Source: an uncultured Clostridia bacterium | GTDB lineage: Bacteria > Bacillota > Clostridia > TANB77 > CAG-508 | Direction: 5' to 3' | Assembly (NCBI GenBank): GCA_947627105.1 | Contig: CANQUT010000011.1 | Location: 1 to 36,137 of the forward strand | Length of the DNA: 36,137 bases | In this document: in pieces, positions 5,442-14,644 of the stretch | Layout: every line of letters begins with the position of its first letter | How positions within the stretch are numbered: position 1 is the first letter of the stretch | Notes under the pieces: generated by a model | Databases searched by the model: none | Seen by the model: the letters and a program-made list of their open reading frames with translations, nothing else | What the model was told of the DNA's origin: nothing | Program-made: the position numbers and the translations under genes

Positions 5442-5592
5442 CACTATTATTATATATTTCTTCTGTTTTTCATCCGAACCGCATAGGTGTGTGAATTACT
5501 GTATGCTTTCTTTTTAGTAATTTACTTAGGCTATGCAAGAAGTAACAAATGCTCTCTAAATTCAAAACAGTGCGAAATATATAATAATAGTG
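5442..5592 (-). other. Structured intergenic element A: 19-bp perfect terminal inverted repeat with nested stems
   Basis: CACTATTATTATATATTTC (5442-5460) and GAAATATATAATAATAGTG (5574-5592) are exact reverse complements; inner CTGTTTT/AAAACAG, GCATAG/CTATGC and AATTACT/AGTAATT pairs. Confidence 0.75.
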
Positions 5593-11355: not shown

Positions 11356-12751
<1,396 letters not shown>

Positions 12752-12810
12752 GGGGCATTGGCTAAATTATGGTCTTTGTAGTTATAAATTAAGGGTTTTA
12801 TAATTAACCC

Positions 12811-12923
12811 GCTTAAATAGTACTATTTTTCGCAGTTTTGAAAGGTCCCGTTCTGACTCTACTTCTTTGAGTTCTCTTCTGCAACGGGCATTTGAAAAAC
12901 AAGAAAACTAGTACTATTTAAGC
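12811..12923 (+). other. Structured intergenic element B: 15-bp perfect terminal inverted repeat with nested stems; core resembles element A
   Basis: GCTTAAATAGTACTA (12811-12825) and TAGTACTATTTAAGC (12909-12923) are exact reverse complements; inner GTTTT/AAAAC, CCCGTT/AACGGG and ACTC/GAGT pairs. Confidence 0.75.
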
Positions 12924-12989
12924 AAGTTAGCTAATAAATCTCCATAGAATCTTATTTGATTTTTAGCTTTGTTAGATTTCATTTAACTT

Positions 12990-13649: not shown

Positions 13650-14498
13650 CTATTCAACAATGCTATATATTATAATTCCAAGTGATTGTATTACAAATAA
13701 ATTTACAATATTAGAAGTTAGCAAATTATTAGTAGCTTCTATTACGCCATCTTCTAAATTTTGTTTATTTAATTTGTAATGTTTTTGGGCTTCTAAAAAA
13801 GTAATTAGTTCTGGTATGCTTGTTATAAAGCCAAGTAAAATACCTATAAACCACTCTGGTACATTAAAAATAGAATTTAAATTTTCTAATGTATTACTTA
13901 GTAAATTTCCAATAAAATAAAGAAAAATTGATATAAAAATTAAAAATACAATATTTTTTATAACTATTTTTTTCTTTCCTTTTACCCATTTTTGTTCTTC
14001 TTGTATTTTCTTTTCTTGCTGAGTGGTTTTGTTTAAGTATAATTTATGAGAATTATTATTTATAAAGTAAAAAAGCAACAGTAGTAGCACAAATATTGGA
14101 ACAATTTGAATAGAAAAATCTATTTTAAATATAAAAAATAATACTGGAATAATAATTGTAAAAATAGCCATAATTAAATCTATTTTAATTGCTTTTTTAC
14201 TTAGAATTCTTTGATTTTTATTTAAAAATATTGTAGCTAAGTACTGAATTAAATTTATAACATTAGAACTTATAATATTATAACTACTTACAGAAATTAG
14301 ACCTGTAAATGCAGAAAAAGACACTGTTAATAATTCTGGCACAGATGTAGCTATTCCAGAAATGTTTCCCACTGTTTTTGGTTTTAAATTTAAACTCTCT
14401 GCTAAGTTTCTTAAAACTGTTACTAAAAAATATTTAGATATTAATACAATTATTGTTGTGTAAAAAATAAATTTTAAAAATTCTAAAATAAAATTCAT
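13650..14498 (-). CDS. CaCA-family sodium/calcium exchanger-like membrane protein
   Basis: Two inverted hydrophobic halves with alpha-repeat-like motifs GIATSVPELLTVSFSAF and GFITSIPELITFLEA. Confidence 0.75.
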   Translation of the reverse strand: MNFILEFLKFIFYTTIIVLISKYFLVTVLRNLAESLNLKPKTVGNISGIATSVPELLTVSFSAFTGLISVSSYNIISSNVINLIQYLATIFLNKNQRILSKKAIKIDLIMAIFTIIIPVLFFIFKIDFSIQIVPIFVLLLLLFYFINNNSHKLYLNKTTQQEKKIQEEQKWVKGKKKIVIKNIVFLIFISIFLYFIGNLLSNTLENLNSIFNVPEWFIGILLGFITSIPELITFLEAQKHYKLNKQNLEDGVIEATNNLLTSNIVNLFVIQSLGIIIYSIVE

Positions 14499-14512: not shown

Positions 14513-14644
14513 GTTACAATTCACAGCCTTAAAATTATCCGCCACGCGCCCAACGTATTATATATGTTTTTTCTAGGGCTAAAGCACGAAAAAACATATA
14601 TAATGAAGCAAGTGGCTACTCTAAAATTTATAATTAACTGTAAC
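14513..14644. other. Structured intergenic element C: 17-bp perfect hairpin with outer complementary segments
   Basis: ATTATATATGTTTTTTC (14557-14573) and GAAAAAACATATATAAT (14588-14604) exact reverse complements; outer GCCAC/GTGGC and GTTACA/TGTAAC pairs. Confidence 0.7.

Follow-up and report, generated by a model that had tools for sequence, protein, structure and literature searches.

The hairpin at positions 12811–12923 of the window (the whole 36,137-nt stretch of DNA analyzed, from an uncultured Clostridia bacterium) belongs to a dispersed repeat, here called element B, that has about 45 copies in this 1.33-Mb genome. Element B is very probably a miniature inverted-repeat transposable element (MITE). 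The enzyme that moves it would be a transposase supplied in trans, one that leaves 8-bp target-site duplications and recognizes ends like GTTACTA(G/A)TTAAT. Its copies are dispersed and have defined ends, 8-bp duplications, and a clean empty site, and derivatives occur in which the center has been lost or inverted in place. The first-pass annotation, which had compared this hairpin with a second one (element A), missed that B is a transposable element, as its ends, target duplications, and empty site show. From the sequence comparisons, B appears to represent a new MITE family whose center keeps its fold and can invert in place, and whose orientation is biased in relation to transcription.

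The hairpin, confirmed at the coordinates first given, is the longest inverted repeat in the window, and its predicted RNA fold (-45.9 kcal/mol, z = -5.96) is far better than those of shuffled sequences, none of 200 being as good. The parts of the hairpin itself are described on the plus strand. The 5' side of the outer stem (helix 1; 12811–12831, GCTTAAATAGTACTA-T-TTTTC) has one T.C mismatch at 12826, and its 3' side lies at 12904–12923 (AAAA-C-TAGTACTATTTAAGC). Next comes the GCA side of an asymmetric internal loop (12832–12834), in which CA is invariant and G nearly invariant among 34 diverse copies. It is followed by the GTTTT side of a short helix together with the GA of a tandem G.A/A.G mismatch (12835–12841). 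The opposing segment (12894–12903) contains the other GA of the mismatch, the AAAAC side of the helix, the AA side of the internal loop (12901–12902), and the closing G. The inner helix (helix 3) has CCCGTTC on its 5' side (12847–12853) and a G, a bulged C, and AACGGG on its 3' side (12881–12888). The apical loop (12854–12880) is variable, with a CTTCTTTGAA-like center conserved in the alignments. Comparison with other copies and the consensus ends places a decayed left outer arm of X type at 12781–12810, within which GTTATAAATTAAGGG (12781–12795) is the counterpart of the consensus end GTTACTAGTTAATGG. The right outer arm (12924–12955) is also decayed and marks the approximate end of the full element, with no recognizable TAGTAAC end. 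Elsewhere in the window, a promoter-like pair (12751–12723) and a terminator-like hairpin (CCTTGTATG...CGTACAAGG-TTTT, 12701–12678) lie on the minus strand within 12678–12751, between B and purA, and are possibly a purA leader. An inverted repeat with perfect 17-bp arms and a 14-nt spacer (14557–14604) occupies the gap between an ORF ending at 14498 and serS.

At least 40 matches to the B core are scattered through the 1.33-Mb genome, the best 40 having 86–97% identity. A pattern search recovered 42 copies, and a covariance model recovered 45 within 590 kb around copies. The close relatives G009, G013, and G019 have 20–50 copies or more, G006, G011, G021, and G040 have 8 to 23 each, and CANQCT also has many. 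The highest count, at least 128 copies in about 1.6 Mb, was found in G043, which is likely the best place to seek an active transposase. Overall, 15 of the 30 genomes of the genus have matches, some of them weak, and copies appear and disappear between close relatives. A search of 119 genomes from the order gave no match outside the genus. The B model matched none of six pattern hits in viral contigs and none of the tested pattern hits outside Clostridia in a genome collection. Rfam scans at gathering and relaxed thresholds gave no meaningful match. Based on these scans and a non-exhaustive literature search, the family is previously undescribed. One relative (L361, 7744–7870) has an enlarged apical part with 126 nt between the core motifs and an extra hairpin, which shows that the apical loop tolerates insertions.

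Full-length B is about 168–178 bp, bounded by GTTACTA...TAGTAAC; most end-defined copies fall within this size (range 167–204 bp). It is thus short (<500 bp) and without coding capacity, as MITEs are. Although most copies have decayed ends, 35 have the terminal inverted repeats GTTACTA(G/A)TTAAT with up to two mismatches, and eight of these 35 are flanked by perfect 8-bp target duplications (e.g., TTTATGTG, ATATAATG, AAATTAAT, and GAAAAAAA), with two of the eight (L076 and L157) being mutual orthologs. Across all 35 copies, the 8-bp flanks have a mean of 4.97 matches compared with 3.06–3.12 in shuffled pairings. This excess of 1.9 matches peaks only at 8 bp, being 0.6 at both 7 and 9 bp. Moreover, the site corresponding to L013 is cleanly empty in G009, with a single target and neither the outer palindrome nor the center present; other orthologous sites contain remnants or are less clean. 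An autonomous partner would be expected to have GTTACTANTTAAT ends and to act on B in trans. No autonomous element, or longer B-ended element with a transposase gene, was found in the approximately 2.5 Mb (with redundancy) examined, which is part of the genome.

The target duplications also bear on the idea that B is a REP/BIME-like palindrome moved by a RAYT (Y1 HUH) transposase, which we regard as most improbable. HUH enzymes do use folded single strands with mismatches as substrates, and B resembles REP/BIME systems in being palindromic and intergenic in a genome with one Y1 transposase; a single-copy Y1_Tnp gene is present in both G000 and G009. However, to our knowledge HUH enzymes make no 8-bp target duplications, and the gene is not linked to B copy number, given that the copy-rich G013 has no Y1_Tnp match and that many B-less genomes have Y1_Tnp genes. 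The single-copy RAYT-like gene of G000 (L201; G000:C10:14057-14380) has an open frame of 262 aa, and its 1.5-kb flanks contain no B copy. As for what defines REP/BIME elements (lack of target duplications, tetranucleotide-tagged palindromes of 20–40 nt, and association with a RAYT gene), B does not have these features.

The two outer arms, X and Y, occur in both orders around the center (XY in 15 copies and YX in 35), and at five of 24 orthologous sites the central ~90 bp is inverted in place, with flanks and arms unchanged. At one such site (G009 L102 and G019 L116), the 24-nt loop is identical in the two genomes and the flanks agree, with the center reversed, indicating that the center was turned there rather than replaced. 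At inverted sites with differing loops, the center may have been replaced instead. Apical loop identity is 0.85 at orthologous sites with the same orientation and 0.69 elsewhere. The center can also be lost: G009 and G019 each have a center-less palindrome at the L002 site, and further ones were read in G009. The borders of this invertible and deletable center are TAGTACTA palindromes. Inversion and loss may both originate in the palindromic arms, by template switching or by recombination between them, and loop inversion by template switching has been described for RNA hairpins (PMC8794818).

The same patterns could be read as two nested elements, the center having entered an older palindromic MITE in one orientation or the other, since both arm orders and center-less palindromes exist and TAGTACTA borders the center on both sides. 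We consider this distinctly unlikely. In-place inversion accounts for the two arm orders, and deletion between TAGTACTATTT repeats accounts for the center-less form. Furthermore, TAGTACTA looks like a duplication only because it is palindromic, given that the flanks of the center in the divergent relatives L097 and L098 are inverted, not direct, repeats. The L013 empty site also lacks both layers at once.

The fold of B is strongly conserved. Among the 34 diverse copies, 94.4% of the alignment cells in the fold pair, and 110 cells have changes on both sides, compared with 30.7 ± 4.4 in shuffles (reached by none of 500) and 4–24 for slid structures; the shuffle control takes no account of copy relatedness. 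Changes on both sides occurred at 13 of the 19 pairs in helix 1, and the outer stems of relatives have widely different sequences that still pair. The inner helix CCGTT/AACGG is swapped for CCGAG/CTCGG or CCAAG/CTTGG in relatives. For the B family, the excess of double changes over shuffles thus bears out the covariation-like pattern that had been proposed from two hairpins, and the further homologs with the GCA/AA loop that this proposal called for were found in large numbers with the loop conserved. The earlier wording, a structured RNA or hairpin-recognized element family, holds for a structured element family, and a structured RNA is possible.

This pairing need not all reflect selection, because template switching can make compensatory changes in inverted repeats without selection (PMC8794818). 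The perfect pairing of differing outer arms, which the first-pass annotation had emphasized, is partly expected from an inverted-repeat element with template-switch repair, such that outer-arm covariation alone is no proof of RNA function. A better argument for selection comes from the mismatches, which persist even though template switching would tend to erase them. The GCA/AA loop and the tandem G.A are retained among copies despite pairing changes elsewhere, and the GA/GA opposition is kept in 29–30 of the 34 copies, with C-G/A-T instead in three G011 copies. In addition, the drawn strand has 72 G.U cells and 17 A.C cells (about 27 and 17, respectively, without two columns). Together with the tandem G.A, this surplus suggests that it is the fold of the drawn strand, as RNA or single-stranded DNA, that is being maintained.

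The strong compensatory change, the conserved internal loop, tandem G.A, and apical motif, and the persistence of non-canonical positions that template-switch repair would tend to erase would all suit a structured non-coding or cis-regulatory RNA family (riboswitch-like or a 3'-UTR element), in which function explains the copies and mobility is incidental. We nevertheless judge this explanation unlikely. Copies come and go between close relatives and carry target duplications, about half of the genus lacks B, and Rfam contains no relative even at relaxed thresholds. In tandem gaps, moreover, the transcripts of neighboring genes run opposite to the structured strand.

This orientation bias was evaluated with gene context defined by ORFs of at least 70 codons rather than by curated annotation. 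In G000, 27, 11, and 4 copies lie in tandem, divergent, and convergent gaps, respectively, compared with total gap lengths of 54, 16, and 8 kb, so placement follows intergenic length. In tandem gaps, the drawn strand runs against transcription in a ratio of 26:1, whereas between divergent genes the ratio relative to the regional direction is 5:6 (Fisher p = 0.001 for the difference). A replication-strand cause of the bias is disfavored, as copies in divergent gaps are random with respect to regional gene direction; a single discordant tandem case (L231) points the other way. In contigs of CANQCT, the most copy-rich genome, the tandem ratio is 20:9, a weaker bias, as one would predict were recent insertions being filtered by selection. 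One explanation is that the drawn strand is mildly harmful within the mRNA of a neighboring gene, and that copies between co-directional genes survive mostly in the orientation opposite to transcription. The location of copies in tandem gaps, at a median of about 60 nt after the upstream stop codon, might point to an intrinsic transcription terminator that has spread between genes. This idea has very little probability in our view, given that the core lacks a G+C hairpin followed by a T run (a weak match occurs in the outer arm only) and that divergent gaps contain a quarter of the copies, matching their share of intergenic length.

Element A (5442–5592, minus strand) represents a second family, which has the loop and mismatch module of B and is present in four copies in this genome, with one more found in G003. 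As the first-pass annotation had claimed, A and B have a common order of outer stem, GCA-AA loop, GTTTT-AAAAC stem, and G-A/A-G mismatches. Their similarity score of 47 compares with 27 ± 4.2 for random palindromes of A's composition and was reached by two of 5000, in a control that ignores the prior selection of A by that annotation. In 590 kb of the genome, A was also the top non-B match of the B covariance model (28.8 bits; the next match had 21.9). At E <= 3 in the stretches searched, the model picks only the window copy of A and not the other three. Since only one of the four copies is found in this way, the alignments no more than suggest a common descent of A and B. Other details of the original comparison fared less well. 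The proposed inner helix of A (GCATAG/CTATGC) pairs in the window copy, whereas in the three sister copies it is disrupted and their consensus fold lacks it; the G003 copy, read by eye, may form a shorter equivalent. The reported recurrence of TACTTCTT in both elements did not hold, as just one of this genome's four A copies has it at the stated position, with TGCTTCTT in G003, and the bases preceding CTTCTT in B are variable. No clear target duplication was seen for A, and its five copies follow no orientation rule relative to genes. At one orthologous intergenic site, G013 has a B copy (L169) and G000 an A copy (L032/L042). The folded module common to A and B is probably a binding site for a protein, either of the host or of the element. 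A more specific proposal is conceivable but doubtful: two MITE families with unrelated ends would have the same module (GCA/AA loop and tandem G.A) as a working RNA or single-stranded DNA part, such as a protein-binding site that aids mobilization or protects the host, and selection would preserve it by way of compensatory changes.

Several known repeat families resemble B. Correia elements (CREE/NEMIS) of Neisseria are likewise short and non-autonomous, with terminal inverted repeats and many intergenic copies (review PMC10969869). However, their target duplication is TA rather than 8 bp, they belong to a different phylum, and B, compared with them by Rfam scan alone, has a conserved internal fold with compensatory change. 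Correia elements give a hairpin transcript (PMC10969869), and a passage of the same article that cites Elbeyioglu et al. (2017) reports their inversion. The BOX, RUP, and SPRITE elements of Streptococcus pneumoniae are small interspersed repeats of a Firmicute, as is B. SPRITE is terminator-like (PMC10969869), whereas the B core lacks a terminator signature and B has 8-bp target duplications. ERIC of enterobacteria, an imperfect palindrome near gene 3' ends, comes from a different host and is not known to share the sequence of B. Where ERIC inserts near gene 3' ends, it exposes an RNase E site and so alters the amount of mRNA (PMC10969869), and by analogy this effect is a possible model for the orientation bias of B. 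QMITE1 and QMITE2 of Coxiella burnetii, another different host, are similar to B in having tens of copies, and they give a hairpin transcript, with direct repeats of 7–9 bp in QMITE2 (PMC10969869). The in-place inversion and the orientation opposed to transcription observed in B may not distinguish it from these two.

Taken together, B constitutes a MITE family that is restricted to one genus of uncultured Clostridia from the rabbit gut and is rich in presence/absence and inversion polymorphisms among closely related genomes. Because conserved mismatches sit within otherwise self-correcting arms, the family is a natural setting in which to test whether selection or template switching accounts for compensatory change in a mobile hairpin. 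It can likewise serve to test why, in transcribed gaps, such hairpins are mostly tolerated in a single orientation.
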